From Aphrocallistes beatrix (Eukaryota; Porifera; Hexactinellida; Sceptrulophora; Aphrocallistidae), in the NCBI GenBank assembly GCA_963281255.1, contig OY725490.1, positions 6,262,001 to 6,326,000 on the forward strand: a stretch of 64,000 bases of DNA, written 5' to 3'. Below, one piece after another: positions 3,543 through 53,385 of the stretch; within the stretch, counting starts at the first letter, position 1, and each line of letters starts with the position of its first letter. Under the pieces are notes generated by a model. It did not search any database and was not told where the DNA came from. It saw nothing but the letters and a program-made list of their open reading frames with translations. The translations under genes and the position numbers were made by a program.

Positions 3543-3689
3543 AAAAAAATTAGTAGAAATTAATACTTTGGAGATGTTACAAAAATATTATATAGTGAAT
3601 TTATGTTGCTATTGTTCTCACTATTCTTGATGAGAGACATAACAAAATCCAAACTCATCACCGTAAGGTTTCAATACTATAGAATGTGA

Positions 3690-8359: not shown

Positions 8360-11300
8360 ATGGCAAAAACTCTTGAAGAATTATCAGAGCTTGTCGAAGT
8401 AAGCGATCAGTTGTCACCTGATAATGTCCAGAAGTTGACAGCATTACTGAAAATACCATCCGCATTCGTTGACAAAGTTACAGATGGTACAACGCTTCTA
8501 TCTGCATTGCAAGACTGGGGTGAACATGATCCATCTCTGTTCTACGAAGGCCTGAAAGCAATAGGAAGATCCGACCTGTTGGAAAGAGCCCAGAAGTATC
8601 CATGGTTAGTTTCAGGAACTTCCATTGAACGAGAAAAGGAAATTTCTGTCCAAAGTCTCATATCAGTTTTGAGAAACGAACTCACTGACAGAGATTGGCA
8701 TCGAATCAAATTACTCCGTCCCACTATTAATGTGTCCATGCCATTTGATGCCAAGTTGAAATTTCTCCTTCAGAACGATTATATCGCCGCTGACCTAGCT
8801 CCATTAACTAATCTAATGTCAGCTATTAAACGTGAAGATGTTGCAAATAATGTTGAGAAACATCAGCAGTTTTTTTCTCAGAATCCTACCTTGGTGTCAA
8901 ATTTCGCAAAACTTCTCAACGCTGTCGAGAAAGATATTACTAAATGGAATGTTTCCCTCATGAAATACCTGGAGATTCAGAATTTAAAAGTGCAGCAAAT
9001 GCTTGATGACGAAGAAAAGGTAGACCTCGAATCCGTTTTCGTACCTCTGACGATTATCAAAGAGAAACCCAGATTAGTAATTCCAGAGGACGAGACTACC
9101 TATAATGAAATTGCATTTATGGGTAAAATCGCCAGGAAAGAAATCGACATCACACCTGTCGATTTCGACAATGAGTTAAAGGAGTATTTTCCCTCAAATC
9201 CGGAAATATGGTGCCTCATCGGAAATCCTGGCTGTGGCAAGACGTTTCTTTGTTATAGGATAGGCCTTCGTTTCGGTCAAAGCAAACTTCCAAAATTCTC
9301 CTTCGCTGTTTCCATTCCGTGTCGAAATGCAGAATGGCACCAAATGGAACAAAGCAAAAAAGTGTCTGTCGGCATAAATGAGGATTTTATTCAAAACTGG
9401 CTATGCTTATCCATGCCAGTCGATGCCAGCTGGCGTTCAGACCTTTCGAGACATCTCATCGATTCAGACGGTGAAGGACTTCTGATTATCATCGACAGTA
9501 TTGACGAGTACACCAAAGAAGTCCCCTTCGATCAGACACTCCTCTACCTTCTCCTCACGAGAAAAGTCCTAAAATCCTCCACTATCCTCGTGACGAGCCG
9601 TCCAGGTGCTTATACAACAATTTCCTCCAACTTCCAACTCAGCATCGACCGCTTTTATCAGATCCTCGGATTCTCTCCTGAGAACCGAGACCTCTACTTC
9701 CGCATCCAACTGCCAGAAAAGAGGAAATTGGATCAGTTGAAGAGTTTAATCCACCTCCACGATGATATGAACCCGCTCTCTCTCGTGCCAGTAAACGCGT
9801 CACTATTCGCAGCCCTCGTTCGCGAAAATGATGATGTGAGCGCGTTCACCCTCACACTCCTGTATACTGAGTTGATCAGTTACCTCATCAGGCGACAACT
9901 CTCACGTATGCACTTGAAGTACCTTGCCAAGAAACAATTGTTTCCTCAAATGCATCCAGATGTAGTGGATTGTTTGCATCGCATCGGCGAGGTAGCCTAT
10001 CTCGGAGTGTCCAGTCGAGAACTGACCTCCACGAAGGACATCCTCCTTAAAGTGGACGGTGTAGATCAGGCGTGCCAGTGCTTGGGCCTGGCAGAAGAGC
10101 ACATTAAGAAGCTCCCTCATGGCAAAGTGGTCCGTGTGTGGTGTTTTTCCCACCTGACCATTCAAGAGTATGTCGGTGCCAACTGGTTGCGCAATTGTTC
10201 ATGGGGGGACCAATGCCTAAGCACTCGCTACATTGTCAACTCCGATGACAACTTTTCAGTGTTTAAGATGGTGGTGAGGTTTGTGTGCGGTTTATTGTCC
10301 GACGATGCAGACTTGATTCTTTCCATCCTGTACAAATTCCTTCCAACGAATGCAGTTAACATGATTCAGATGCCAATGGTGTGGCAACTCAACTATAATT
10401 CCCAATTTTTCAAATATTCGGGCTGTAAGGAATTAACTCGAGATTTGCTAGTTTTGTCTGAAATGCTCTTTGAATGCGACTCCAAATCGGTTTTAAAATC
10501 ATTTCGGAAATTCCGTCGTTACCTTCCTCAGTCGCTATACTTCTATTTTGATGATTCCATATCTCCTAACGAGTGGAAGTGTTTCTTAAAGTCACTACAT
10601 CCACTCTGTTCCATACAACTAATACATTTCGATACGCGCTACTTCTCTTTGTCTCAGTTCAGATCATTACTGGAGCACCTGCATACTTGTTCTCTATTCT
10701 ACTTAGCAGTGATATTATATGACATAAAATTTTCTACTCTCTCTTCTTACAACGAAGTCCTCGAAGAGATTCAGCTACCTCCTGGAACTAAGCTTAGTTT
10801 GGAACTTAAGTTTTGTGAACTCACAGACAGTGACTCAGCTGTTCATGTGTCCTATCCTCAAATTCTCAAAATATCCACGAGTTTGCATTTATATCATACA
10901 CAATTCCCGCCTAAATTTCTTCTGCAAATAGGGAATCAATTGAATTCCACTGATAACTTGCACTTTTGTCCCAGAGTCCCCGAAGAATACCGAACTTTGA
11001 TTCCACTTCTCTGCCCTGTGCAGGAACAACCGAAGAATATATTTCAAAAACTTATAAATTGGTCCAGCCGTACCAGTTCCATCGGCCCTGCTGCCACACA
11101 GCTGACTGGTCTCCATCTCTATAAGATCAGAATATGTGAACAGCAAATACAAACGCTGCTCCCTCTACTCTCCAATCTACAGGAGATATCATTGGACGGA
11201 ATAGATACATGCTTACTACTACCTCACCTCTGCAATTTATCCGGACTCACATACATACATCTATATTATCCCTACTTTGCACCTAAGGCCAACGCACATA

Positions 11301-11785
11301 AAGATATACTACGAGTCCTGAATACTAACAAACACACTCTGAGAGGATTGGAGTTGTCTTATTTAGGAAGAGTTGGACTAACTCGTTGGGATGAATTCTT
11401 CAGCTCAATATGCACATGCACCAACTTAGTACTTCTTCAACTAAGCGACACTACACTACAACATGATGATGTCACTCTGCTCGGTACAGCAGTGAGTAGA
11501 CTCAGATCTTTACTCTATTTAGAACTATATAGAGTCCGACTAGGTGAAATTGTGTTGCTGCATATGTGTAGAGGACTCATCTACCATCCTACTATCCAGT
11601 ACTTAGGACTAAGGTGGTGTAACCTCAATTCCAACTGTTTTGTGGCTCTCAAACAGCTCATACCGACTCTACTACAGCTGAAGACACTAGACCTGTTATA
11701 TTCTAACCTTTCTAAACCAAATCCTGAAACCGTCCTACTTCTTGAACAAACAGCAAAGCTCTATTCTGTAACTCTTACTCTGTAA
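8360..11785 (+). CDS. NLR: tandem DED-like - NACHT - LRR receptor
   Basis: A single-exon protein of 1141 aa. I place the start at ATG 8360, because the frame only opens 17 codons earlier at a TTG. Residues 1-80 and 95-175 look like two death-effector-domain folds, each ending in the RxDL signature (GRSDLLERA; KREDVANNV). The NACHT ATPase follows: Walker A GNPGCGKT at 288-295, Walker B GLLIIIDSIDE at 373-383, and a TSRPG sensor near 411. The C-terminal 210 residues are leucine-rich repeats. Such receptors sense danger or microbial cues and recruit death-fold or caspase partners in the cytoplasm. The pairing of two DEDs with NACHT is unusual. The DED assignment rests on pattern, not on a profile search. 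Confidence 0.85.
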   Translation: MAKTLEELSELVEVSDQLSPDNVQKLTALLKIPSAFVDKVTDGTTLLSALQDWGEHDPSLFYEGLKAIGRSDLLERAQKYPWLVSGTSIEREKEISVQSLISVLRNELTDRDWHRIKLLRPTINVSMPFDAKLKFLLQNDYIAADLAPLTNLMSAIKREDVANNVEKHQQFFSQNPTLVSNFAKLLNAVEKDITKWNVSLMKYLEIQNLKVQQMLDDEEKVDLESVFVPLTIIKEKPRLVIPEDETTYNEIAFMGKIARKEIDITPVDFDNELKEYFPSNPEIWCLIGNPGCGKTFLCYRIGLRFGQSKLPKFSFAVSIPCRNAEWHQMEQSKKVSVGINEDFIQNWLCLSMPVDASWRSDLSRHLIDSDGEGLLIIIDSIDEYTKEVPFDQTLLYLLLTRKVLKSSTILVTSRPGAYTTISSNFQLSIDRFYQILGFSPENRDLYFRIQLPEKRKLDQLKSLIHLHDDMNPLSLVPVNASLFAALVRENDDVSAFTLTLLYTELISYLIRRQLSRMHLKYLAKKQLFPQMHPDVVDCLHRIGEVAYLGVSSRELTSTKDILLKVDGVDQACQCLGLAEEHIKKLPHGKVVRVWCFSHLTIQEYVGANWLRNCSWGDQCLSTRYIVNSDDNFSVFKMVVRFVCGLLSDDADLILSILYKFLPTNAVNMIQMPMVWQLNYNSQFFKYSGCKELTRDLLVLSEMLFECDSKSVLKSFRKFRRYLPQSLYFYFDDSISPNEWKCFLKSLHPLCSIQLIHFDTRYFSLSQFRSLLEHLHTCSLFYLAVILYDIKFSTLSSYNEVLEEIQLPPGTKLSLELKFCELTDSDSAVHVSYPQILKISTSLHLYHTQFPPKFLLQIGNQLNSTDNLHFCPRVPEEYRTLIPLLCPVQEQPKNIFQKLINWSSRTSSIGPAATQLTGLHLYKIRICEQQIQTLLPLLSNLQEISLDGIDTCLLLPHLCNLSGLTYIHLYYPYFAPKANAHKDILRVLNTNKHTLRGLELSYLGRVGLTRWDEFFSSICTCTNLVLLQLSDTTLQHDDVTLLGTAVSRLRSLLYLELYRVRLGEIVLLHMCRGLIYHPTIQYLGLRWCNLNSNCFVALKQLIPTLLQLKTLDLLYSNLSKPNPETVLLLEQTAKLYSVTLTL

Positions 11786-12058: not shown

Positions 12059-13177
12059 TATGTCATAAATACCCTTGTGACTTTTCTGATTTGAATACTA
12101 CATTGGTTTCAGCTCCTTACCTTGCTGAAGGATTCCAAATATAATTTCAAACCCTTCATTTAATTTGAACAACAAAATGTACTGATTAGAGATTTATCTT
12201 CAAAGTAAAGAAAACATTTTCATAAAACTTAAAAAATTTGTCACTATAAATTTTAACATCGTCAAGAACTACAGTGCCAATCTGGGCCGCTTATTTACAC
12301 AATTTATAAGCGGACCATTAAAATTTGGATAACAGCTTATAATTTTTAAAAAGTTTATTGGATTTTTATTCGAATCATTTTCATAGTCAACAAGTTTCAC
12401 TGTTTACCAATCATAACATGACGAGTGACATCTACATCCTATCAAGGAGGGGCAAGCGTCTAAAACATTGGAAGCATTTGACAATTTTATTATTTAAAAT
12501 CTAAAGAAATCATATTAGGTACAACCCAAATATTTAGATTGAAAGGATCAATTACGATCAAATTCAGTTTTTCATTTATGGAAGTTAGTGACTGGAAGGT
12601 TGGGAAGGGGCCGCAATTTCCATTTGTGCCACGGCCGTTTTGAGCCCTCACTGTCCCGTATTTAAACAGAATTTCTTCATTATGTCACGCTTTTTTTGAG
12701 TCCATGTATAAACTTTTCTAGTGTGTCCCGCCATGTCTCGCGAAATTCAACGCCGCGTCCCGCTTTAATGATGGCTCAAGTTGGCATGTATGCTATCGCG
12801 AGCCTTGAATCTACACCACCATTAGCAGGGCGTAGCTCGTGATGAAGGTTCGTAGGGCATTTTGAACAAATCGTATTATGGCTAGGGCATTAGCAGGCCT
12901 CTCAATTCTCAAGATCTCGTCGTGTGTTACACGATTTCGGGTAAAATGTCACGATCTCACGATTTATCTCAAAATATCACGACGCTTCTATCAAATCTCA
13001 CGATTTGCGAATTCTCTCAGGTTGAGGCCCTGATCTGATACAATGGTGCCTTGTATTACAAAGAATAATTTATATAGTATAATCTGTCAGTATAATCCAA
13101 TTTTATAAATATTTATTCAAGAAATTTAGCAATCTTTTATTCCAATTCTAATCGAGAGATTAAGGTCTAAATTCCAG
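12059..13177. other. Intergenic, no supported gene
   Basis: AT-rich. A stretch at 12910-13015 repeats tctcacgatt imperfectly several times. The final bases before 13178 (aattccag) form a splice-acceptor-like context also found before the other NHL copies, so a non-coding 5' exon may lie upstream. Confidence 0.4.
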
Positions 13178-14410
13178 ATGGCTACGCGTTGGGTTGAACG
13201 TCCTGATCCCGATAGAGAGAATGTGTTCCAGAGAGTGAGGAGAGAAATAGAAGAGCTATTCCATTCTCTGATAGAGAAGGTGAATGAGAGGAGAGAAGTT
13301 CTTCTAACACAGCTGAACCAATGGGAAGAAGAGTTCAACATAACACGAGCTAACTGTTTCCAATCTTTAGAAGAGATTAAGAGAGAACGAACTGAGATGG
13401 AACAGTTCCTAGCTACATTGAAATTAAATAAAGCTAGAACCTCAATGGAAAAAGGAATTCTTGATCTAAGTAACGAGATTAGTGAGAAAGAACTGAAACT
13501 CCAATATCCACAAGTTCGATTTGTTTGTGATAGAAATGATTTGAGTTCAAAAATTTCCAAATTCGGATCTTTGGGTAAAGAGACTGACAATGTGTTAGTC
13601 AGGAATTATACTCAACTCTCTAAACCTGTGAAAGTATTTGGTGCATTTGGGAACGGAAAAGGAGAGTTCTCTAATCCTAGTGGAGTTGTAATCGATAATG
13701 ATAATCAAAGAATATTTATTGCTGACAAGTATAATTCTCGTATTCAGGTTTGGAGTTTGGAAGGAGATTATTTGTCTGAGTTTGGTAAAGACATTTTACA
13801 ATGGCCATGGGAAATTGTCATTTTTGATAATTCTGTTTACATTTCAGATTGCAGTGGACAGTTCTTATCTAAATGGTGTTACAATGAATTTACTCTTTTA
13901 AACAAATCTAAAACTTCTGAAGGATCTAAACCTGGTCAGTTGAATTATCCATCAGGTCTAGATATCGATGAAGAAGAGATATTCGTTGTTGAGTATGGAA
14001 ATAAACGTATTTCTGTTTTTGATTTGAATCTTAAATTCAAAAGAATTATGGCGAATAACGCAATAGTTAATTCTTATTGTTTGCGAGTGAGAAATAACAC
14101 AATCTACATTGTAGAGGTTACTGGTGTCATTAAACTATTCTCTAAAGCGAATCGACTCCTGAAGACTATTCCAAAGCTTCCAGTCTTCTCTGATTTTATT
14201 TATCATTTCAACTTTGATTTTCAATTAAATTTTCTCATCACAGATCGTAGTAACAACTCTCTCTTCATCTTATCTCCAGAAGGAACTCTCATTCACTCAA
14301 TCTCTTTTGCTGAATTGGACTTAAAGAGTCCATGTGGTATTGGCATCAACAAGTACGGATGTATAGTGCTATCCTTCCAGATTGGTTCTAAAGCTGTTGC
14401 TATCTTTTGA
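13178..14410 (+). CDS. Coiled-coil NHL-repeat protein, intact copy B
   Basis: A 410-aa single-exon protein from ATG 13178. Residues 1-110 are charged and heptad-rich (coiled coil: REIEELFHSLIEKVNERREVL). Residues 150-410 form an NHL-type beta-propeller whose blades begin with patterns such as GAFGNGKGEFSNPSGVVI, IFIADKYNSRIQVW and IFVVEYGNKRISVFD. This is the layout of TRIM-NHL proteins without RING and B-box, so a scaffold or ligand/RNA-binding role is more likely than direct ligase activity. No signal peptide or membrane segment. It belongs to a local family with copies at 1, 15184, 19285 and 28595. The ATG directly follows ttccag, suggesting a 5'-UTR intron. Its biological role is unknown. 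Confidence 0.88.
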   Translation: MATRWVERPDPDRENVFQRVRREIEELFHSLIEKVNERREVLLTQLNQWEEEFNITRANCFQSLEEIKRERTEMEQFLATLKLNKARTSMEKGILDLSNEISEKELKLQYPQVRFVCDRNDLSSKISKFGSLGKETDNVLVRNYTQLSKPVKVFGAFGNGKGEFSNPSGVVIDNDNQRIFIADKYNSRIQVWSLEGDYLSEFGKDILQWPWEIVIFDNSVYISDCSGQFLSKWCYNEFTLLNKSKTSEGSKPGQLNYPSGLDIDEEEIFVVEYGNKRISVFDLNLKFKRIMANNAIVNSYCLRVRNNTIYIVEVTGVIKLFSKANRLLKTIPKLPVFSDFIYHFNFDFQLNFLITDRSNNSLFILSPEGTLIHSISFAELDLKSPCGIGINKYGCIVLSFQIGSKAVAIF

Positions 14411-15183
14411 TTTTTTTCATTACGAACCTTCGTTGCTAACTTAGCATTGATTTAGTTTATTAGTAAGCATTATATGTATGTGCTTCGCTTACTTTCGCTG
14501 CGCGGCTTGCGGGTACTGTATGTCCTTGCGGGTGCCTAAAGATATCAAATAACAGTTGATTGCTTTCTAATTCTCTACTAGAAACAGAAAACTCATTTAT
14601 CTAAGGTAAATCATGAATTCAGAACTGCAGGTAAAAATTTATGTCCTGATCAAAGGGATTTGAAATCTTCACCCATAAAACCGCCATGTCAACTGTTAAA
14701 AGTTAGTCTCTAGCCTATTTTTGGAATTTGTTTACTTTATGTAACCATTGTAAACGAAATTAAACAAAAAATGTATCATATAGATTCGAAATCTTCGAAA
14801 TCTACACATAACCTTTTTTTATTGCGATACACTATCAAATTGCAAATCGCTTTACTATCATTGACTTATATTTGAGTTGTCAGTTGTTCTAATCCACTTT
14901 TCGAGGAGATACGTGTTAGTTGTTTGAATCTATTTTAGTGGAGTTTCGGTGGTCCACTTATGACAACCGGCAATTTTTAGCCAGAATATTAAAAATATTT
15001 CATTTTAGATTGAGCATATTTTCGCCTAATTTCGCTATTGTTGGTAATTAATGTATTTTTTTATCTTTCCGGATTATATTTCCAAAGATTAATTACAGTT
15101 ATACAATCTATGCATACAAAAAATTTCTGTAACGATTTAGCTTTCATTTATTCAAATTCTAATCGAGAAATTCTGAATTCCAG
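14411..15183. other. Intergenic between NHL copies B and C
   Basis: No supported gene. At 14480-14540 there is the dispersed GC-rich motif (gcttcgcttactttcgctgcgcggcttgcg) found elsewhere in the window. The last 100 bases resemble the promoter-proximal flank of copies D and E. Confidence 0.45.
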
Positions 15184-16416
15184 ATGGCTACACGTTGGGT
15201 GGAACTTCCTGATCTCGATAGACGGAATGTGTTCCAGAGAGTGAGGAGAGAAATAGAAGAGCTATTCCATTCTCTGATAGAGAAGGTGAATGAGAGGAGA
15301 GAAGTTCTCCTGATACAGCTGAACCAATGGGAAGAAGAGTTCAACAGAATACGAGCAAGCTGTAACCAATCCTTAGAAGAGATTAAGAGAGAAAGAGCTG
15401 AGATGGAAGATTTGCTATCTAAATTGAAGATAAATAAAGCTAGAACTTCAATGGAAAAGGGAATCACTGATCTTAGTAACGAGATTATTGAGAAAGAACA
15501 GAAACTCCATTATCCACAAGTTCGATTTGTTTGTGACATAAATGATTTGAATTCAAAGATTTCCAAATTCGGATCTTTAAGTAAAGAGATTGACAATGTG
15601 TTAGTCAGGAATTACACTCAACTCTCTAAACCTGTGAAAGTGTTTGGTACATTTGGGAAAGGAAAAGGAGAGTTCTCTAATCCTAGAGGTGTTGTAATTG
15701 ATAATGGAAATCAAAAAATATTTATTGCTGACATGTCTAATTCTCGTATTCAGGTTTGGAGTATGGAAGGAGATTATTTGTCTGAGTTTGGAAGAGGTAT
15801 TCTACAATGGCCATGGGAAATTGTCATTTTTGATCATTCTATTTACATTTCAGATCTCAAAGGGCAGTTCTTATCTAAATGGTGTTACAATGAATTTACT
15901 CTTGTAAATAAATCTAAAACTTCTGCAGGATCTAAACCTGGTCAGTTGAATCGTCCATCAGGTCTAGATATCGATGAAGAAGAGATATTTGTTGTTGAGT
16001 TTGGAAATAATCGTATTTCTGTGTTTGATTTGAATCTTAAATTTAAAAGAATTATGGCGAATAAAGCAATAGTTAATTCTAATTGCTTGCGAGTGAGAAA
16101 TAATACAATCTACATTGTAGAAAAGACTGGTATTATTAAACTATTCTCTAAAACAGATCAACTCCTGAAGACTATTCCAAAGCTTCCAGTCTTCTCTAAT
16201 GATATTTATCATTTCAATTTTGATTCTCAATTGAACTTTCTCATCACAGATTTTAGTAACAACTCTCTCTTCATCTTATCTCCAGAAGGAGATCTCATTC
16301 ACTCAATCTCTTTTACTGAATTTGACCTGAAATATCCATTTGGTATTGACATCAATAGGGACGGATGTATAGTGCTATCCTTCCAGATTGGTTCTAAAGC
16401 TATTGCTATCTTTTGA
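15184..16416 (+). CDS. Coiled-coil NHL-repeat protein, intact copy C
   Basis: A 410-aa single-exon paralogue of copy B of identical length, starting at ATG 15184 in the same aattccag|ATG context. The N-terminal coiled coil (about 1-110) is nearly identical to B. Differences concentrate in the propeller, for example at blade-edge positions (DMSNSRIQVW against DKYNSRIQVW; VEFGNNRISVF against VEYGNKRISVF). That could reflect selection on a binding surface or simply drift. The 3' flank carries a ttatagatt microsatellite and begins a duplicated segment also found after broken copy E. Confidence 0.88.
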   Translation: MATRWVELPDLDRRNVFQRVRREIEELFHSLIEKVNERREVLLIQLNQWEEEFNRIRASCNQSLEEIKRERAEMEDLLSKLKINKARTSMEKGITDLSNEIIEKEQKLHYPQVRFVCDINDLNSKISKFGSLSKEIDNVLVRNYTQLSKPVKVFGTFGKGKGEFSNPRGVVIDNGNQKIFIADMSNSRIQVWSMEGDYLSEFGRGILQWPWEIVIFDHSIYISDLKGQFLSKWCYNEFTLVNKSKTSAGSKPGQLNRPSGLDIDEEEIFVVEFGNNRISVFDLNLKFKRIMANKAIVNSNCLRVRNNTIYIVEKTGIIKLFSKTDQLLKTIPKLPVFSNDIYHFNFDSQLNFLITDFSNNSLFILSPEGDLIHSISFTEFDLKYPFGIDINRDGCIVLSFQIGSKAIAIF

Positions 16417-18805: not shown

Positions 18806-19284
18806 GAATTAACCGTATTTTCAACGAAATTTCTGCCATTGATCTAAAATACTGATTAATCCAATTAAATTGGAAATAATAACTTCAAAAATAGAGTCGA
18901 ACCTCTGACATCATCAGATAATTGAACAATTGACAGTGTCAAATTCTTACACATGCATGCGATAGTAATGGATATGGCTTTAGTAACCCTTTACTCAAAG
19001 TTTCTGGGTTTCATGCCATTTGCTCATCTTAAATTAGCTTTACAATCTATCTTGCACTAGTTATCCGAATCCAAGCATCTCCAAAGCTCTGGCTATGCCA
19101 CTGGTACTTCTGGAGTTGCACTATCAGCCCACTGATCGACATTCTAACTTAATGCTATTGAGTGGATTATATTCCCAAAGATTAATTACAGTTGTACAAT
19201 CTATGCATACAATCTTGTAAATAATTTCTGAAACGATTTAGCTTTCATTTATTCAAATTCTAATCGAGAGATTCTGAATTCCAG
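18806..19284. repeat. Duplicated 5' flank of NHL copy D
   Basis: Matches 28080-28594 upstream of copy E over its whole length, with a 30-bp indel. It probably carries the promoter of these NHL genes and ends in the same gaattccag|ATG junction. Confidence 0.8.
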
Positions 19285-19955
19285 ATGGCTACGCGTTGGG
19301 GCGAACTTCCTGATCTCGATAGAGAGAATGTGTTCCAGGGAGTGAGGAGAGAAATAGAAGAGCTATTCCATTCTCTGATAGAGAAGGTGAATGAGAGGAG
19401 AGAAGTTCTCCTGACACAGCTGAATCAATGGGAAGAAGAGTTCAACGGAACACGAGCTAGCTGTATCCAATATTTAGAAGAAATTAAGAGAGAACGAACT
19501 GAAATGGAAGAATGTCTTTCTAAATTGAAGATAAATAAAGCTAGAACTTCAATGGAAAAGGGAATCACTGATCCAAGTAACGAGATTAGTGAGAAAGAAC
19601 AGAAACTCCATTATCCACAAGTTCGATTTGTTTGTGACAGAAATGATTTGAATTCAAAGAGATTACTGGTGTTATTAAACTGTTCTCTAAAACAGATCAA
19701 CTCCTGAAGACTATTCCAAAGCTTCCAGTCTTCTCTAATTTTATTTTTCATTTCAACATTGATTCTCAATTGAACTTTCTCATCACAGATCGTAGTAACA
19801 ACTCTCTCTTCATCTTATCTCCAGAAAGAGATCTCATTCACTCAATCTCTTTTACTGAATTTGACCTAAAGAATCCATTTGGTATTGACATCAATAGGGA
19901 CGGATGTATAGTGCTATCCTTCCAGATTGGTTCTAAAGCTATTTCTATATTTTGA
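19285..19955 (+). pseudogene. NHL-repeat gene with internal deletion (copy D)
   Basis: The first 125 codons match copies B and C (coiled coil). A deletion of about 560 bp then joins the sequence aattcaaaga to ttactggtgt of a late propeller blade, with a few bases of microhomology (aga). The join shifts the frame, which stops at 19707. The remaining 3' part (LLKTIPKLPVF to the terminus) is still recognisable in another frame up to 19955. It could at most make a 140-aa coiled-coil fragment. Confidence 0.85.
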
Positions 19956-22288: not shown

Positions 22289-25200
22289 ATGGGGGTTGAT
22301 CTTTGTACATGGCGCAACCACATTGGCATATTCAATTCACGGAAATCTGCAAAATCAAGATGCTGCAAAATGATAGATATTCCTGGATTTGTTACATGCA
22401 ACATTTTGATCTCCATCTTAACAATTCTATCTCTATTCCTTATTATTTGCGGAGATGTAGAAGTGAACCCAGGACCAAGATATAATGGTTAGTTATTTTA
22501 CATATACTACATAGTACGTATTATTATTGATGTTTCTAATAATAAACAATGATATATTTGATTCAGAGAATTTATTATAGAAACTGATGATGTCAAGCAA
22601 GGTAACGAGATTGTCTCAAAGATGACCGATGCCTTATCCAAGTTAACTGGACATGGTTCATTAATTCTGAACAATCTCGAATTGCTTAAAACACGAAATT
22701 GGCGGGATGCCTCTTCTATCTGGGGTAAGCTGGCAAAATATGTTTATAGAAGAAATCGCTTGCAACTACGGGCGAAACTTATGAACATCTGGCGAAACAA
22801 CAACTGGAATATCAAATCTCAGGTAACACAAGCATTGACACTACCTAAAGATAAATTTACTCTACCTATCAGTATCAACATTTCTGAATTACCAGATATT
22901 CGTAATCATAACGTGCTTTTCTCCCATTCTGATAATTCACTAGAATCAGACATAAGTTCAATTATTAGCATTGAATCCACTGATCAGGTATCTAGTAAAA
23001 TGCACATAGTTCAGTCGACAAATCGAGGTGAATTTGGATTGACAGGCCAAGAATGGTTCAGAATTTTTCCAAATTTTTCAGAAAGTGCTCTAAAGTCAGA
23101 ATGGACAACCTTATTTAATGAGAAAATTTCCGTTTACTACCCGTTTTGTGTTCTAAAATTTTTATACCATCGAATTAACAAAAGCTATTCAAGACGTGGA
23201 AGTGCATTTCTTATTGCAGCAGCAGTTTGCAAGTTTAGTAATTGTTTCACCTTCAAATTTGAAATGGAAACACCGCAAACAAACGCAAGCAATCTTTATC
23301 TCGTTAATTATACTGCTACTGGATCAATCTCTGAAGAACATTCATCTAATTTAATTTCGCACAGCCGACATTTATCTGGAGACAGAAGAGAAGCCACTGC
23401 GAAACAGCTTGAACTTTCCAGTCCTTCTAATCTTCATTATTCCCTCTTTGTTGATTCACAAAATTTATCCGTTGCCAAAAAAGGAAACTTCAATTATTTA
23501 CACTCAACCGATGTCATTAGAAAGGTCAAGTCACAGCACTTTGAAAAATCCCGATTTAATAATGATATGTGGCAGGACATCATTAGCACCCAAATGTCAT
23601 ATATGAGCACAATCATTGGGAATACTCTTAACGGCTACATTCATTTCATAAGTTATTCCCCATTCATCATTCACTTGTATAGTGAAGAACAGATAATGTT
23701 GTTAAAAAAATTGGAAAAAGAATCTTTTGCATTGCATTTAGATGCCACTGGTTCGGTTATCAGGAAATTAGATCATTTGGGAAAAAGAATCCTCTATTAC
23801 GCTATCTCAGTAAAGCATCCTCTATCACATGTAAGCCCAATTCCACTTGCTGAGATGGTATCTAGCGAGCAGACAAACATTGAAATTTCACATTTGCTTA
23901 ACCGATGGTTATATGACGTAAAGAAGGTGACGAGTAGCGAGATATTACCAAATAAAGTTGAAGTAGACTTTAGTTGGGCCATGCTACATGGTGTCTGCAA
24001 TGCCTTTAACAAACAAAACTTAGAATGGTATTTAAATAAATGTTGGGAAACTATTCACAAGAGCAATTCTACTAATTCAATAAAAGTAATAATACACATA
24101 TGCTCGGCACACATAATGAATCGGTTTAGCTATAAACTAAGTTCTAAGTTCAGGATGGATAAACAGAGGAAACAAAAGATCATGTTCATAATGGCTCGAA
24201 TGACGAGTTGTACAACGATGGATGAAATGAATCAGTTATTTGGCGCATTGAGTATGGTATGTTTATCAAAAAAGATCTATCCAAAAATTGAAGAATCTTT
24301 TGATAAACTTAACAGCTCTATTTGTCTTGATAAGGAGTTCGATTTTGATCTCGAAAATATCACAGAACTAGATGAATCATTACCCAATGAAATGGGAGAT
24401 AGCAAAACATACAAATCAAGATCTCCATTTGGTATACATTTTCAGAATGAATTAATGAACTGCAAGACGCTTGTTGGCATATTTGAAATGGAAGAACAGA
24501 ATGAAAGCACTCCTAAAAACAACTACTACTTTCCAGATTTACCATCATTTCTTGTAACTCATTACATGCCAGTTTGTCCCCTCTGGTCAGGTCTTATACT
24601 AGGCCCATCCTTGCACCCAGGTCAATATCACGTGACATCCACGAATGCAATTGCAGAAAACTGGATGAGAATTGTAAAGATAACAATTTTACAGAAACAA
24701 TGCAAACTAAGACCGGGAGATTTCATTCGCAAATTAAGGGAAGGTATTGTTGGTAGAATAAAGGCATTCGAATTTGCATTCAATCCATTGAGCCTTAAAG
24801 TTCTCAAGAGACAAAAAACACAACAACCAAAAGATTATGATCAAATTGATGAAATGTGGAAGAAGAAGAAACCAAGACAGACATACTTCAAACCAGGAAA
24901 GCCAATGAACTCTAACAAACAAGCTTCACTTAAAAAGTTCAAGAATCCAAGACACGGAAAACTTAATCATTTGCCTTCCATAATGGTCACTAGCCCTCAG
25001 GTCAACTCAAAGGCAGTAACATTGTGCAGTGATTTGTCTAATGACGATTCTATTCCAGATGAAACTCTCTATATAGTAGATGTAAAATCCTATTATCATG
25101 GAGAATTCAAGACTGTAACTCCGAGTTGGCAAAGGGAAAAGTGCAAGGTGATAAGACTAACATTTACAACAGGAATACTATATGAAAATGAAGCCGCTGA

Positions 25201-25696
25201 TAAATCTCTTGAGATTCGACAATTAATTCCTACAAAAGAAAAAAGGATTTCACCTGATGGGAATTGCTTGTTTCGCTCTTTATCATACATAATTACTGGA
25301 ACAGATTACAATCATAAAGAAATACGGGAGTTAATAATTGATAAAATGAAGGGCGAATATAGAAAATTAGCCACCAATTACGTTCAAGCTCGAAAAGATT
25401 TATTGCCAGAGGAACGTTGCAATTCGATTGAAGATTATCTGAAAGCGAGCAAAATGGACCGAGTAGGATCTTGGGGTACAGACCTAGAAATATTTTTAGC
25501 AGCTATCATCCTGAGAACAGATATCTTTGTCTACAATGATGAGGAACAATCTTGGTTGAAATTCTCAGGACATGGCTTCATTGATGCTAAATCTACACAT
25601 GATTTAACAGAACGCAGAGTTTATTTGAGATTAAACATGAGCCACTTTCAGCCTGTCATCAAGGTTAACACCAGAACTCAAAGGCTTCCAAAATAA
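22289..25696 (+). CDS. Transposon polyprotein: 2A leader, MULE-like DDE transposase, OTU protease
   Basis: The leader frame opens at ATG 22289 and gives about 66 residues: a hydrophobic helix (ILISILTILSLFLI) ending in a 2A ribosome-skipping motif, GDVEVNPGP. It stops at 22492. The main frame (22622-25696, 1024 codons) has a DDE core with D374 (HLDATGS), D449 (VDFSWAM), the MULE-type C494-x2-H497 and E679 (AIAENWM), followed by a C-terminal OTU cysteine protease (DGNCLFRSL, Cys882; WGTDLEIFLAA; terminal His in MSHFQPVI). A stop at 22604-22606 separates the frames. Splicing 22487 to 22611 (donor g|gttagt, weak acceptor gag) would join them in frame into about 1094 aa, but separate initiation at ATG 22622 is equally possible. 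The OTU domain may strip ubiquitin from transposition factors; this is inference. Confidence 0.8.
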
Positions 25697-28079: not shown

Positions 28080-28594
28080 CGAACAGTATTAACCGTATTT
28101 TCAACGAAATTTCTGCGTTCGTCTAAAATAAGACCCACAACAGATCGAGTCGACTAACTGATTAATCCAATTAAATTGGAGCCGAATAATAATAATAACT
28201 TCAAAAATAGAGTCGAACCTCTGGCATCATCAGATAATTGAACAATTGACAACGTCAAATTCTTACACATGCATGCGATAGTGATGGATATGGCTTTAGT
28301 AACCTTTTACTCAAAGTTTCTGGGTTTCATGCAATTTGCTCATCTTAAATTAGCTTTGCAATTATCTTGAACTAGTTATCCAAATCCAAGCATCTCCAAA
28401 GCTCTGGCTACGCCACTGGTACTCCTGGAGTTGCACTATCAGCCCACTGATCGACATTCTAACTTAATGCTATTGAGTGGATTATATTCCCAAAGATTAA
28501 TACAGTTATACAATCTATAAAATCTTATAAATAATACTATAACAAATTTAGCTTTCATTTATTCAAATTCTAATCGAGAGATTCTGAATTCCAG
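28080..28594. repeat. Duplicated 5' flank of NHL copy E
   Basis: Second copy of 18806-19284. It presumably held the promoter of copy E and ends gaattccag|ATG. Confidence 0.8.
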
Positions 28595-29826
28595 ATGGCT
28601 ATGCGTTGGGTCGTACTTCCTGATCTCGATAGACGGAATGTGTTCCAGAGAGTGAGGAGAGAAATAGAAGAGCTATTCCATTCTCTGATAGAGAAGGTGA
28701 ATGAGAGGAGAGAAGTTCTCCTGACACAGCTGAACCAATGGGAAGAAGAGTTCAACAGAACACGAGCAAGCTGTTTCCAATCTTTAGAAGAGATTAAGAG
28801 AGAACGAACTGAAATGGAAGAATTGTTAGCTAAGTTGAAGATAAATAAAGCTAGAACCTCGATGGAAAAGGGAATCACTGATCTAAGTAACGAGATTAGT
28901 GAGAAAGAACAGAAACTCCATTATCCACAAGTTCGATTTGTTTATGACAAATGATTTGAATTCAAAGATTTCCAAATTCGGATCTTTAAGTAAAGAGACT
29001 GACAATGTGTTAGTCAGGAATTACACTCAACTCTCTAAACCTGTGAAAGTGTTTGGTACATTTGGGAAAGGACAAGGAGAGTTCTCTGATCCTAAAGGTG
29101 TTGTAATCGATAATGATAATCAAAGAATATTTATTGCTGACATGCTTAATTCTCGTATTCAGGTTTGGAGTTTGGAAGGAGATTATTTGTCTGAGTTTGG
29201 TAGAGACATTCTACAATGGCCATGGGAAATTTGTCATTTTTGATCATTCTATTTACATTTCAGATTTCAAGGGACGTTTCTTATCTAAATGGTGTTACAA
29301 TGAATTTACTCTTGTAAAGAAATCTAAAACTTCTGAAGGATCTAAACCTGGTCAGTTGAATTATCCATCAGGTCTAGATATCGATGAAGAAGAGATATTT
29401 GTTGTTGAGTATGGAAATAACCGTATTTCTGTTTTTGATTTGAATCTTAAATTTCTAAGAATTATAGCGAATAACTCAATAGCTCATTCTTATTGTTTGC
29501 GAGTGAGAAATAACACAATCTACATTGTAGAGAGGACTGGTGTTATTAAACTATTCTCTAAAACAGATCAACTCCTGAAGACTATTCCAAAGCTTCCAGT
29601 CTTCTCTAATTTTATTTTTCATTTCAACATTGATTCTCAATTGAACTTTCTCATCACAGATCGTAGTAACAACTCTCTCTTCATCTTATCTCCAGAAGGA
29701 GATCTCATTCACTCAATCTCTTTTACTGAATTTGACCTAAAGAATCCACATGGTATTGACATCAATAGGGACGGATGTATAGTGCTATCCTTCCAGATTG
29801 GTTCTAAAGCTATTGCTATCTTTTGA
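28595..29826 (+). pseudogene. NHL-repeat gene with two frameshifts (copy E)
   Basis: Full-length relative of copies B and C: coiled coil, six-blade propeller, C terminus GSKAIAIF. A 2-bp loss near 28947 (gacaaatg where others have gacagaaatg) and a 1-bp gain near 29231 (gaaatttgtc against gaaattgtc) place it in three frames. No other lesion is visible and divergence from C is low, so the damage is recent. A coiled-coil-only product of 119 aa could still be made. Confidence 0.85.
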
Positions 29827-46194: not shown

Positions 46195-47427
46195 TTAAAA
46201 CAATTGCAAAGAATGATTATAATTATCAGACAATACAAACAAAATTCCGGAATTTGAAATTGCAATGCCAAATGGATACATTAATTCTCCTTTTCCGGTT
46301 CCTTTTCTTCCAATGGTGTGTAGTAGCTCACCGGAGTTAGAGAGTATCTTAATCACATGGTTCTTGCGGTCACTAATGAGGATATTTTGTTCACCGTCCA
46401 AACAGAAGAACCAAGGTGCATATACCAAATAGTAGTGTCTATCGCCCTGTGGCACGCAGGAGGAAAGGAGCTCTCCACTTCTGGAGAAGAAGTGGATGGC
46501 ATTGGTACTTTCGTCTAGTACCAACACTTTATCTGTCGTTAGTTTCAAGTCTCTAGGATAAAATAGCGATCCTTCTCCGAAAGTGCGTTTGTATTGAAGA
46601 AGATAAGAGAACACGGACACTCTGTTGTTCTTTGTTTCTGCTATGAACAAGTCTCCATTCCAGTCCACACTTAATCCCATTGGATATGCCAGCTGTCCTT
46701 CATACTTTCCCTTACCACCAGCTCTGTTGAGGAGTTTGTTGCTGTTCTTGCAGAACTGGTATAGCATGTGATTTTGATGGTCTGTAACAAATATGTTATC
46801 ATCAGTGAGTGCTATTCCACAAGGCCTGGATAATTCTTCTTCTCCAAAGTGAGATAGGAACTCTCCTTGGAAGGACAGTACCTGTATGCGACTGTTTGTA
46901 TAATCCGCTATGTAGACCTTCTCATCCACTTCGTCTAATGACAGTCCACGGCCATCAAGCTGTTTCTCACCTTTCCCTCTCGTCCCAGCCGTTAGGATGG
47001 GTTGTTGTTTCTGAGCATAACATGGTGCTTCTAGCTGGACTACCTCCCCGAACTGCTCTATCTGAGACTGAAGGAGGGAGAGGGTGGGACAGGAAAAGGA
47101 GAGGTTGGGGAGTGGGGTGGCAACACACAGCTGCTGCTTGGCCTGTTCGTACACGAATCCTGCTTGCTTGTGGGTGGGGACGTTAAGGTTACTTTTTGTC
47201 ATTTGTTTTAGTTGCTGCTGTGTCTGGTCTAACTCTTGGATAGCTGCCAAACGAGCAGATTCTTTGTCGTGAAAGTCATCGCGAAGTTCTGTGACTATTT
47301 GGCAGAGAACGTCCCTCCTCTTGATCAGCTGATTGACTAGGCGATTGAATGTTTTCTCGATTTGTGTGATTATACGATGGAAATGCGCCATTGTGTCGTA
47401 AGGGACGATTTCAATATTTGTCGCCAT
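46195..47427 (-). CDS. Coiled-coil NHL-repeat protein, minus-strand family
   Basis: A 410-aa single-exon protein from ATG 47427. Residues 15-100 form a coiled coil (FHRIITQIEKTFNRLVNQLIKRRDVL...LDQTQQQLKQM). Residues 150-410 form an NHL propeller (VYIADYTNSRIQVLSFQGEFLS; IFVTDHQNHMLYQF; LFIAETKNNRVSVFS; ILISDRKNHVIKILSNSGELL; GIAISNSGILFVLSD). It is clearly homologous to the gene interrupted at 51860-57045 and has the same architecture as the 410-aa plus-strand family, with much lower identity. GC content is higher than in the recent copies. No RING or B-box. Probably a cytoplasmic oligomeric scaffold; function unknown. Confidence 0.88.
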   Translation of the reverse strand: MATNIEIVPYDTMAHFHRIITQIEKTFNRLVNQLIKRRDVLCQIVTELRDDFHDKESARLAAIQELDQTQQQLKQMTKSNLNVPTHKQAGFVYEQAKQQLCVATPLPNLSFSCPTLSLLQSQIEQFGEVVQLEAPCYAQKQQPILTAGTRGKGEKQLDGRGLSLDEVDEKVYIADYTNSRIQVLSFQGEFLSHFGEEELSRPCGIALTDDNIFVTDHQNHMLYQFCKNSNKLLNRAGGKGKYEGQLAYPMGLSVDWNGDLFIAETKNNRVSVFSYLLQYKRTFGEGSLFYPRDLKLTTDKVLVLDESTNAIHFFSRSGELLSSCVPQGDRHYYLVYAPWFFCLDGEQNILISDRKNHVIKILSNSGELLHTIGRKGTGKGELMYPFGIAISNSGILFVLSDNYNHSLQLF

Positions 47428-49411
47428 TGCTCAGTATTTAGAAGATTTTTGTGCTAAATAGAAATAGTATACGACTTAGCTAAGACAGAAGAATCTGTAT
47501 TATATATAATGTCAGAATACCAACGTACGTCAATGGTTGCTATGGATACTACTGTAAATGCTAGGGAATTTAATATTGGATACACAAGATGGTGCGTAGC
47601 CATTATTAAATTTCTTATATGACCTAGCTTGTTTGTATCTTCATTTAAGAGTATTTTTAGAACCTGACACTATCCTGTCTCAATGAGTGTCGAATTTTTT
47701 TGTTATTTAAAAGAAATAATTTCATTATAATAATTAAATGAATGCGCAACCAGAGTTGTTTTGGCATACGTATATCTTGGAAAATATTCCTGGGTGATGA
47801 CGCATCACATGTACATTATCCCATGATGGAGGGACACAAGGTTGCATCTAAGGGTTAGCCCCCCCCCTAAATATATTTTAGATCCCCTTAACTGCCCTGA
47901 GATCCAACCCTGCAGTAGCCTCCCCCTCAAAAGATTTTAGACTCCTTGGCCTTCCCCGCCTGAGGTCCAGGGGTGGATCAAACCCTGAGCACACTCTCAT
48001 CCCGTATACGAGGGCCTTTTTCTACAATGAAAGCTAAGATTTGGATTTTAGCTGTTTGCTGTGTCAGCAGCTTAATATTGTAGATCACCCATCTTTTTAT
48101 CAATCATATGTAAACTTTCTTTTTGTACTAAAAGTCAACCTCAAATGTCAGTGAGATGATGTCATTCCCAATCGAATTGATGATGAAATAGTTTCAGAAA
48201 ACGTTGCATCTATCTATGTACATTGGTATAAGATATATGATGTACTGGTGCCTCAAACCAGTAATAAATATCACACTACAGTACACCCTCGCTAATCCGA
48301 ACAGCTCTGTTCCAATGTTCGAAAAAATCGTTCGGATTAGTGAATTTGTTCCGATTAGTGAAATAACACTAATTCAATAGGACATTAATTATAATAAATC
48401 TGTTCTGTTAGAATATTAAGGATAATATTTCGCTATGATTGCTTATTTAACGAGGTTTCTCAATCTTATTGATAGATTTAAGTTTATATACGTTTATTCA
48501 AAGCATAGAGGCAAATAAAATTATATTTTGGGTGTTCGGATTGGCGAGGTTCGGACTATCGAGGGTGTATTGTATTTCATTTTGTAATGAAAAGCTATTT
48601 CTAACAAAAAGTGAGCTTCATATTGACTACTGCTTTGAGGACAAAGTCCTACTCAAGCGCGATTACCCTACTCGAACTGTGCAGCGACGCAACAGTGAGT
48701 ACTTTCGCAGGCATTTGAGTGAAGTCAGTATATCGAGCGTAGTACGCGATAACTAGCTTACCCATTGACACAATACATTAGAATTAGATCAGTGACATCC
48801 TGTGAATTCAAAATGTAGTTCAGTTTCCAGTTTTTACAACATCAAAATCGCTACCTGCTTTTGGCTCAGATAGTAAGCAGCAGTTGTGGCTCACTAATAT
48901 TATATCATATAGACCAACTATTTATAGTATTATAAATTAGAAGTAAACGAATGTGGGTTCTTATTAATCTACATCAAAACGATGATTCCCAAACTTTTAT
49001 AAGACCAGAAAATCTTAATGGAACCTTGGTAGTTTAGAAATAGCTATTCAATACGTTCATGAATAAGAACTAAGCTCGTTATTTCTCTACACTAAACGAA
49101 TGCTAGAAGTTAATCAATAGCTTGAAATTCGATTTTAATCCCGAAAGTGTTTAGGAGCGTGAAAATTTAGAATATTATCCAATTTACCTTATATCATAAT
49201 GTTATTTATTGATTTAGGCGATATGAAAATTTATGAGTTTGAGACTAGGAGCGTATCTCTGGAGGGCTGTACTATCATACCCTGGTACATATACTCGTAC
49301 TACTATACACTAGTTTTGCTGTGTCAGTTTCATATAACTCACAAATACATTAATAAAACACAAATAATGAATTTAAGTGAAGAAAAAAACTTTTAGTAAA
49401 TACAATCAATT
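47428..49411. other. Intergenic with pogo-type MITE
   Basis: Besides the MITE at 48279-48572, a C- and G-run-rich stretch at 47840-48010 looks like a degraded dispersed repeat. No supported gene. Confidence 0.45.
48279..48572. mobile_element. 294-bp pogo/Tigger-type MITE
   Basis: TA|cagtacaccctcgctaatcc at the left pairs with ggactatcgagggtgtattg|TA at the right. Internal copies of gttcggatt(a/g)g strengthen the hairpin. TA target duplication and CAGT-like ends fit pogo/Tigger. Confidence 0.8.
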
Positions 49412-51050
49412 TCAAATTGAATCTTGTTTCGTCTGGAAGGGATGGACCAATTTACAACAAACTCGCTTATGAATGCTCAAGTAGGAGATCATCGCTTTGA
49501 GCGAGGTGAACTGATAAAGAGATAACACGTACAACCAATCGAATGAGAGGTAGCTGATCTTGTACTGATGCACCTTTCCATTGTGAGACACAACTAAACG
49601 GTAATTCCCAGGACTTGTTATGCTAGGGCGGACAAGAAAAGTTCCATCCTCACTTCCTGCTAGTTTGGAATCTGCGGTTTTTCTATCCATTCCTTCAAAG
49701 TACCAGTCTTCCAGGCTCAGATTCTCATTCGGCTTAATTACATTCCTCGGAACGTATCCCATGTCTGGAACGGAGATCCTACGGATTAGCAACAAGTTCT
49801 TTCTGGCGTCCAAACTGTCCAGCAAGTGCACTCTGTCCCCAGGCTTCAGTCTAGCTGGAACATCCTTGGTCACGTCTATGAAGGTGGTAGTGCTGATGGC
49901 CACACACGTGGTCGGATCGCTTTCTCTAGACGGGAGGCTGTCCCTGATGGAGCGGTAGCTGAGGGTGAGGGAGCTGATGCTATCCATCGAGCGCTCCTCC
50001 TCGGCCTCTTGGTCGACTGCTTCCTCGAGCGATAGCCGGGATGGTGAGATGGCTTTAGGACTAGATGGAGATTAGAGATATAATTGAGAATCTGTATACA
50101 CCGATGAGTACCTTACTTGTATCTACTTCAGATTATTAAACTAGACAAATATATTACCTTTTCAAACAAATCTGTCGTTTGAGGGTAGACATCCAGACAC
50201 AGCACTCAGCTACCATCCTTGCTTCCTTCTCACAGAACCGAGTTGTCCTCTCGATCAGTTTCTGGTTCACCACAGGTAGTAGCAACTCCAAACTGTAGCC
50301 GAACTGGCAGTACTTCTCCATCACCTCGCACAGCACAGAGACGAACACGGAACCTTCTCTCACGTGACGTATCGACTGGTACCCGTCCACAGCAGACCAC
50401 ACCACTAGGAAGTCAGACCATTCAGTGCTGCTTGTGTGTGTGTCCCATGTTCCCGATTCTGTACCGTCATGCTCGTACACGTAGTGCCGCTCTTTCTCTC
50501 CACCTCTACAACCGTTCAAGAACAGCAGTTTAGGCTTGCCTTGCAGCAAGGGGCAGGAGTGGGAGTTGAATATGCTCTGTATCGTGTGGCTAGATATCAC
50601 GTCGTTCAGGCCTTCTATGCTGCGGCCTTCTGACAAGAGGTGGAGACGGTCTTCAATGTTTGTACCGAATAAACCTTCTTCATTTCCATGCGAACTAAAG
50701 TGAATAGGAATAATGATAAACAGTCTCTAATTCGTGATTGTACGAATAAAATCGATTAAAGAATTGTAAAACAACCTGATGGCGATGGCAATAGTGGAGT
50801 GAGATTTCAGTTCAGGGTCTCTAGTAGTCTTGAACAAAACTTCAAGAATCTCATGGCTGGTCAGTTCTTGGTAGATCCGAGTCTCCAGTCCTAATGAAGT
50901 GAATAGAGAGGAGAGGTTCTCTAGCTCTTTATCTGCACCACGTCTGTAATGAGAGGGAACATTCTGGAACTTGTTCACAATTATAATGCCCAATCCAAGG
51001 GGAGATCCGGTCAAGGGGTAGGTAGGGAGCTCAGGAGGAAAGGATGCCAT
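49412..51050 (-). CDS. Caspase fused to Src-type SH3 and SH2 domains
   Basis: Exons 51050-50776, 50694-50158 and 50060-49412 join in frame (GT...AG introns of 81 and 97 bp) to 486 aa. Residues 17-270 are a caspase: GLGIIIVNKF strand, substrate-pocket RRGADKELENL, catalytic His94 in SSHGNEEG, catalytic Cys154 in LFLNGCRGG, then a p10-like part (DFLVVWSAVDGYQSIR..GSVFVSVLCEVM). An acidic linker leads to an SH3 domain (about 323-385, ending GYVPRNVIKP) and an SH2 domain (390-476: DWYFEGM, phosphotyrosine-binding Arg415 in TFLVRPS). The SH3-SH2 spacing and sequence resemble Src, but there is no kinase. There is no CARD or DED prodomain. Phosphotyrosine-guided proteolysis is a plausible inference. 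Confidence 0.9.
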
Positions 51051-51859: not shown

Positions 51860-53029
51860 CTAGAAACATTGCAGCGAATAATTAGTGTTATTCGAGAGTA
51901 CAAATAAAATGCCTGAATTGGATATAGCAATTCCGCATGGTTTAATAAAGTCTCCTTTCCCGCCACCTTTCCCTCCAATGATATGGATCAGATCCCCGGA
52001 CTTTGAGAAAATATTCACAGTCTGATTTCCCTTGTCACCAATGATGATATTTTGCTCTGTGTCCAGACAGAAGAAAAAACATATTTGTATCGAGCAATTT
52101 CCTTGCCCTTGAGTCACGCACGATGAAAGGAATTCTCCACTTCTGGAGAAGAAGTGGATGCATTTGGGACCCCTGTCGAGTACTATAACTTCTTCCGAAG
52201 TCAGTTTGACATCACGCGGATTGTGGAGATACTTTTCTCCTACAATAGAATTGAATTGGAGCTGCTCTGAGAATATGGACACTCTGTGGTTTCCATCCAC
52301 GATATAAATATCTCCATTCGTGTCTATAGCTAACATATGAGGTTGCATCAAGTGGCCTTCATCTTTCCCCTTACCACTAACTCTGTCGAGGAGTTTATGA
52401 CTGTCTTTACAGAACTGGAGAAGTGTGTGTAGATGAAAGTCTGCAACAAATATATGACAATCAGTTACCCCAATGCCACAAGGACCCTGTAGCACTTCAC
52501 TCCCGAACTGAGAGAGAAACTCTCCTTGGAAGGAGAGTACTTGTATCCGACTATTGTCGTAATCAGCAACATAGACAGTCTGACTGTCTTCATCCAGTGC
52601 CACTGCTCTGCCACTGAGCTCCTTGTCGCCACTTCCTCTCCTCCCGGCTGTCAGAATGGGCTGGACTTTCTCAGAGTAGTTGAGTGCTTCCACTACCACA
52701 CCGAACTCAGCTATCTCTGAGCAGAGCCGGGATAGGGTGGGATGGAAGAAAGTCAGTTTGCGGAGTCGAGTTGGAGTTGCGTGCTGGTGTTTAGCCTGCT
52801 CATACACTCGCCGTGCGTGGTCATGCACACCGATGTTAGCATTCACTTTGAGGTTCATCTCACGGAGGCGGGCTTGTGCTCTCTCTAGCTCTTCCATGGC
52901 AGCGAGGCGACTCGCCTCTTTGTTTACGAAATCCTCCTGGAGCTGGTGAACTTTTCGGAGGAGAGCCTCTTTTCTCGTTATCAGCTGACAGATTAGATCA
53001 TCAAATATTTGCTCGATTTGGGCGGTGAT

Positions 53030-53385
53030 CACAGTGTGCCAAATTAGTGAATTTTTGAATCTCTTGTCCCAGATGTGAAATCTATCTAATTTGTTTCTCT
53101 TATATGTGTATATTCATATGCTTAATTCCAAAAAATATATTATCTTGCAAAATCTTGATTTTCACACCCCATTGTCTGTATGACATAAATAAATTCAAAA
53201 AATTTTTTTGCTTTTTAACTTTTGCGTATGTTGTATTATACTTGTAAATTTATGACAAGGAATAGCGAAATCTACCTTATGCTGTCGTATTTATTCTTAA
53301 ATGATTCATTAATCAATATTAATGGATAATATGGCACCATCCGACCCAAATTTGGCGATTTCTCTCTTGGATCAGCTATATTGGG
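53030..53385. repeat. Left terminal inverted repeat of the Chapaev-like element
   Basis: Matches the reverse complement of 56497-56852, with scattered substitutions and small indels. Confidence 0.9.

Follow-up and report, generated by a model that had tools for sequence, protein, structure and literature searches.

A predicted caspase with a C-terminal Src-type SH3-like/SH2 module in a sponge

On balance, we favour the interpretation that one gene in the window (the whole 64-kb stretch of Aphrocallistes beatrix DNA that was analysed) encodes a prodomain-less, executioner-like caspase fused to a kinase-less Src-type SH3-like/SH2 module, and that the protein is docked by phosphotyrosine. It is likely that the caspase and SH3-SH2 parts share one transcript, by way of a predicted splice at intron 2. 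Activation of animal caspases is understood mainly in terms of death-fold adaptors and upstream caspases.

Gene structure

Three spliced exons on the minus strand give a single 486-aa frame that runs from 51050 to 49412, stop included. Exon 1 (50776–51050) holds the start codon and the N-terminal part of the caspase p20, that is, residues 1–91 and part of 92, including the pocket residue Arg36. It is separated by intron 1 (50695–50775; 81 nt, GT-AG, phase 2, 27% GC) from exon 2 (50158–50694), which encodes the remaining p20 with His94 and Cys154, the p20/p10 linker, and the complete p10 with Ser199 and Arg201. The predicted intron 2 (50061–50157; 97 nt, GT-AG, phase 2, 30% GC) is followed by exon 3 (49412–50060), which encodes an acidic linker, an apparently degenerate Src-type SH3-like domain, an SH2 domain, and a stop codon at 49414–49412. 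All of these features are on the minus strand. The same junctions, 50775–50695 and 50157–50061, and the same 486-aa frame had been proposed in an earlier, sequence-only reading of this DNA, and both GT-AG introns were reproduced in frame here.

Exon 1 itself cannot be extended upstream in frame because an in-frame stop abuts the ATG at 51050. GC content is 46–61% in the exon stretches and 27–30% in the introns and the 600-nt flanks. Exon 2 (50% GC) has one open frame with a positive codon score, and the codon score of intron 2 is negative in all three frames. A candidate polyadenylation signal, AATAAA at 49205–49210, lies ~200 nt past the final stop. It is the only AATAAA on the minus strand between 51500 and 48900, and one ATTAAA lies further on, at 49139. 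We found no second copy of the gene in the 64-kb window, where one further match reached only E 0.13. Scans of the window with Rfam and for tRNAs gave no hits.

The caspase part

The Pfam family Peptidase_C14 matches residues 22–242 (E 2.6e-30; 106.3 bits against a cut-off of 21.4), over profile positions 5–215 of 233. Intron 1 is forced by this homology, because the unspliced exon 1 ORF (E 1.1e-6, 28.9 bits, profile positions 5–72) and the exon 2 ORF alone (77.6 bits, positions 71–215) match adjoining parts of the profile, and joining them gives the full score and span. Residues 1–301 have 213 PDB matches, of which the top 60 are all caspase 3, 6 or 7. On the same grounds, identity as a metacaspase or paracaspase was set aside.

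In alignments with caspase-3 chains, His94 (in SSHG) and Cys154 (in NGCRGG) fall on the catalytic pair, which bears out the earlier claim that both catalytic residues are present. The claim of a p10-like part also holds: at the level of sequence, p10 is colinear with caspase-3 chains almost to its C-terminal end. Arg36, Ser199 and Arg201 align with Asp-pocket residues of caspase-3, whose Asp-binding S1 pocket we take to be formed by Arg64, Gln161 and Arg207. Two of those three are kept, as Arg36 and Arg201; the third, Gln161, is replaced by Asn152, and QACRG reads NGCRG.

The inter-subunit linker contains YVYEHD (residues 163–168; 50466–50483, minus strand), a candidate maturation site at which cleavage would follow Asp168. 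Two potentially phosphorylated residues, Tyr163 and Tyr165, are just upstream. Asp168 lies 14 residues past the catalytic Cys, and the corresponding distance in caspase-3 is 12 residues. An NCBIfam search of exons 2 and 3 returned nothing. Structure models of exon 3 and exon 2, made separately and with no relatives, had mean pLDDT values of 38.1 and 41.1, respectively, too poor for use.

The SH2 and SH3-like domains

The SH2 domain (residues 390–464; 49481–49705, minus strand) is matched by Pfam with E 3.9e-14 and 52.9 bits, against a cut-off of 21, and the phosphotyrosine Arg of FLVR is present as Arg415, as the sequence-only reading had stated. In the alignment, Gln stands in place of the Src His that adjoins Tyr in HYKI. 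The closest solved structures to exon 3 are those of Src (phmmer E 9.1e-17), followed by Fgr, Fyn, Abl and Hck, among the best 60 of 245 matches.

The adjacent SH3-like stretch (approximately residues 321–384; 49721–49912, minus strand) had been described as an SH3 domain. Pfam gives no SH3 match for the full protein, nor for the isolated stretch even at E 10. Hence, the Pfam search that had been proposed as a check returned Peptidase_C14 and SH2 but not SH3. A phmmer search of the isolated stretch against PDB gave 14 rows to E 10. Eleven were SH3 domains of Src or v-Src, the best at E 0.42, and the top row was an unrelated chloroplast protein (E 0.24). When the module is taken as a whole, the phmmer match to Src is colinear across SH3 and SH2 and scores 64.5 bits, whereas no Src SH2-only chain in the best 60 of 245 matches exceeds 44.5 bits. 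The pairwise local score against Src SH3 is 54, which was reached by none of 5000 shuffles (mean 19.6, maximum 40); 246 control windows from residues 1–315 had a maximum of 32. Two alignments to Src SH3 differ at the N-terminal end, with ALYD placed against AIST in one and ALYDY falling in a gap in the other. As judged from these comparisons, the stretch is homologous to the Src SH3 but degenerate.

The aromatic residues with which SH3 domains bind proline motifs are the Tyr pair of ALYDY, the first Trp and the final Tyr. Residues 321–384 include no Trp and a single Tyr, Tyr373 in GYVP, which makes recruitment through proline motifs unlikely. Thus, the earlier description stands as to Src SH3 homology, which the shuffle test upholds, but the domain has no Pfam match and most of its ligand aromatics are absent. 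It is probably an SH3 by descent that has lost proline-motif binding.

The module was also said to be kinase-less, and the protein to have no death-fold prodomain. Pfam searches to E 1 gave no match for five of the 11 listed minus-strand ORFs upstream of the gene (35–62 aa) or five of the eight listed downstream (42–71 aa). No CARD or DED death fold was detected by Pfam in the 486-aa protein or in these ten flanking ORFs, in agreement with the earlier claim. No tyrosine kinase domain follows the SH2: the frame ends at the stop at 49414–49412, and none was detected in the scanned downstream ORFs. The SH3-SH2 order with no kinase, in what was scanned, is therefore as described.

One transcript or two

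The assignment of both parts to one transcript depends on intron 2, our call of which draws on frame, codon use, composition and the absence of a polyadenylation signal. The caspase runs right up to the last codons of exon 2, and its frame carries on into exon 3. The 24 exon 3 codons that precede the first in-frame ATG score 10.7 bits, or 0.44 per codon, and other coding segments score 0.26–0.32. Of 6785 overlapping windows taken from five stretches presumed to be noncoding, 1631 were open, and none of these matched this coding score; in this comparison the noncoding codon model was trained on the same five stretches that served as controls, and composition drives much of the score. With the contribution of composition reduced, the start of exon 3 scores +3.2, the other two frames score -7.3 and -9.1, and the coding windows of this gene have a mean of 3.1 (sd 2.5). 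Shuffled versions of the exon 3 start were open and scored as high in 21 of 5000 cases when mononucleotides were shuffled and in 177 of 5000 when dinucleotides were shuffled. The composition-reduced score was reached by 380 of 5956 intergenic windows, open or not.

The main alternative is that there are two genes or transcripts: a caspase that ends at the TAA at 50156–50154, and a separate kinase-less, SLAP-like SH3-SH2 adaptor whose start lies in exon 3 or shortly upstream of it. We consider this unlikely. If intron 2 were retained, translation would run to that TAA and the protein would end in ICLKR as a complete 271-aa caspase. This is what two genes would look like, and it also makes a caspase-only isoform plausible. 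However, the two parts are less than 100 nt apart, with neither AATAAA nor ATTAAA inside intron 2, and the frame leading up to the first ATG in exon 3 resembles coding sequence. Furthermore, the exon 3 ORF opens only 11 nt ahead of the exon, so a separate gene would need either an extra upstream exon or a start at Met296.

Evidence from the splice sites is less decisive. The ability to join in frame is weak evidence, since 45 donor-acceptor pairs near the junction do so; among them, only the chosen pair leaves the reading frame of exon 2 intact throughout. On an approximate matrix, the intron 2 donor ranks 11th among 145 sites and the acceptor 32nd among 182. By the same approximate measure, one other pair, 50324/50023, has a higher summed splice score, but splicing there would delete the greater part of p10; the strongest donor in the region is at 50116, inside intron 2. 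A strong donor-like site between the two parts, together with a mediocre acceptor, would suit two genes. Nonetheless, weak splice sites weigh little, because intron 1, which is forced by homology, has sites that are likewise unremarkable (ranks 36 and 21). A decaying or misassembled locus, with a caspase pseudogene beside an SH3-SH2 fragment, would fit the degenerate look of the SH3-like part and the lack of any relative in the viral and genome contig collections, but it is very unlikely given that each of the three exons is open, that their codon use resembles that of other ORFs in the window, and that the catalytic, Arg pocket and FLVR residues are all kept.

Genomic neighbourhood

The caspase gene is flanked on the same strand by genes for NHL-repeat proteins at 46195–47430 and 51860–53113 (both minus strand). 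A second NHL subfamily, the copies of which are 85–86% identical, is present at 13130–14410, 15163–16416 and 29107–29826, and ORFs at 193–801, 19264–19955 and 28574–29243 look similar to it by eye. For the neighbouring NHL family, a search gave five loci in bacterial records and one in a viral contig, at 22–28% identity, which is uninformative as to origin. Downstream of the caspase gene, a stretch of ~300 nt at 48277–48574 looks like a small mobile element: it has 26-nt inverted repeats at its ends (TACAGTACACCCTCGCTAATCCGAAC; 88% complementary). Each outer end bears TA, and a further pair of repeats lies inside, at 48287–48303/48533–48549.

Elsewhere in the window, a 1168-aa NLR-like ORF (8279–11785, plus strand) has a NACHT match (E 6.1e-19), a C-terminus that looks leucine-rich by eye, and an N-terminal DED match that falls under the Pfam cut-off (28.5 versus 35.9 bits). 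Together with the NHL genes, the short introns and the AT-rich flanks of the caspase gene, this NACHT gene would by itself point to an early-branching animal, possibly a sponge. An ORF for a MULE transposase with a FLYWCH match (2289–3587, minus strand) is overlapped in another frame by a RING (C3HC4_3) ORF at 1952–2374; the locus at 1952–3587 (minus strand) may be a RING-bearing transposon. A 1044-aa ORF (22562–25696, plus strand) has an OTU-like cysteine protease domain (E 1.1e-9) towards its C-terminus and, by eye, may be a mobile-element protein. Finally, an ORF that looks transporter-like by eye (4412–5725, plus strand) is split by an in-frame stop at 4862–4864, with both halves in the same frame; a pseudogene, a tiny intron or a sequencing error are possible explanations.

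Proposed function

What might a caspase do with an SH2 domain? We propose that the SH2 would dock the protease onto tyrosine-phosphorylated proteins, and that Asp-specific cleavage would then take place at active tyrosine-kinase complexes or in their vicinity. In this scheme, the SH3-like part would serve as a spacer, not as a reader of proline motifs, and the enzyme would mature through a cut in the p20/p10 linker, after Asp168. Under this proposal, the docking module would aim an executioner-like enzyme rather than switch it on. The rival readings considered below are compatible with this explanation, and our confidences in them overlap.

One alternative, to which we give a fairly low probability, is a phosphotyrosine latch. 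The SH2 would bind a phosphotyrosine of its own protein, in cis or on a partner copy, most simply Tyr165 (in VYEHD) or Tyr163. This would hold the zymogen closed or shield Asp168; a tyrosine kinase would set the latch and a phosphatase would release it. The Src SH2 binds the Src tail as a comparable latch. The positions are suitable: Tyr163 and Tyr165 are 5 and 3 residues ahead of Asp168, and the spacing of Asp168 from the catalytic Cys is close to that in caspase-3. However, there are 17 tyrosines in the fusion, so the presence of one in the linker is not striking. A parallel comes from human caspase-8, in which Tyr397/380 of the linker is phosphorylated by Src kinases and is reported to interact with the Src SH2 (PMC4839753).

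It is less probable that the protein is initiator-like, with clustered phosphotyrosines gathering copies through the SH2 and proximity dimerising the caspase, in place of recruitment by DED or CARD. This would be consistent with the lack of a detected death-fold prodomain in the protein or scanned ORFs, and with an SH2 that, from its sequence, looks able to bind phosphotyrosine. It is harder to reconcile with a caspase part nearest to caspases 3, 6 and 7 (the best 60 of 213 matches) and an SH3-like part that is without most of the ligand aromatics. Executioner caspases are dimeric zymogens that are activated by linker cleavage, not normally by proximity. Since the caspase part resembles executioners, activation by recruitment is no more likely than targeting or a latch. 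The sequence-only reading had suggested that phosphotyrosine or proline motifs might replace DED/CARD recruitment. A domain with one Tyr and no Trp speaks against the proline half of that suggestion; the phosphotyrosine half may hold, although it suits an executioner-like domain less well.

We infer all three models, targeting, latch and proximity. More tentatively than for docking, we suggest a phosphotyrosine-governed caspase, that is, a zymogen that would be set, held or aimed by tyrosine kinases through its own SH2, bypassing death-fold adaptors. Through this SH2, the protein would bind either a phosphotyrosine in its own linker or a kinase scaffold.

Relatives and known systems

Searches of viral contigs gave 7 pattern matches for exon 3 and 12 for exon 2, and searches of genome contigs gave 50 for exon 3; none was confirmed as a homologue by tblastn. 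Neither collection is meant for animal genomes, and the absence of a homologous fusion from them therefore says little. The earlier statement that no caspase with an SH2 or SH3 domain has been described agrees with the open-licence literature, in which the portions of main text that were available, taken without supplementary tables, name no caspase-SH2 or caspase-SH3 protein. In particular, no such fusion is named in the accessible portions of PMC6040629, PMC3499355, PMC5793068 and PMC12909245. Provisionally, we regard the caspase-SH2 fusion as new.

Like the executioner caspases 3, 6 and 7, the protein has a complete p20/p10, the His/Cys pair, the Arg residues of the Asp pocket, no long prodomain, and a linker with a candidate Asp site. 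It differs from them in its added C-terminal SH3-like/SH2 module, in a loop ~18 residues longer before the helix aligned with ITNFF, and in having NGCRG where they have QACRG, the Gln of which (Asn here) is presumably an Asp-pocket residue. With Src-family kinases and SLAP it shares the SH3-SH2 order and the FLVR Arg; Src is colinear through both domains, and Src-like adapter 2 is among the PDB matches of exon 3. In contrast to these proteins, the module here lies behind a protease and has no kinase and no N-terminal Met-Gly, and its SH3-like part contains a single Tyr but lacks Trp.

Comparable sets of domains have been described in other animals. In Amphimedon Death-fold/TRADD-N proteins, SH3, SH2, kinase and caspase domains are reported to be alternative C-terminal partners (PMC8195603). 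The toolbox of SH3, SH2 and caspase is the same, but those C-termini are alternatives, whereas here caspase, SH3-like and SH2 parts are in one chain with no death fold detected. In amphioxus, TNFR-caspase, LRR-caspase and death-caspase fusions are described, which the authors interpret as shortcuts (PMC2575513). These also join a caspase directly to a sensor or adaptor domain, but the partners named in the text consulted are receptor, LRR and death domains, not phosphotyrosine readers. In the reported case of Src kinase and caspase-8 (PMC4839753), a caspase likewise meets an SH2 through phosphorylation of a linker tyrosine, but the two are separate proteins and the SH2 is on the kinase.

Significance

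If our reading is correct, tyrosine-kinase signalling and irreversible proteolysis would be linked within a single protein, a caspase that carries its own phosphotyrosine reader. The fusion would then be a natural form of the link reported in mammals between separate Src and caspase-8 proteins (PMC4839753). Its occurrence in a sponge would bear on the coupling of kinase signalling to cell death or immunity in early animals.
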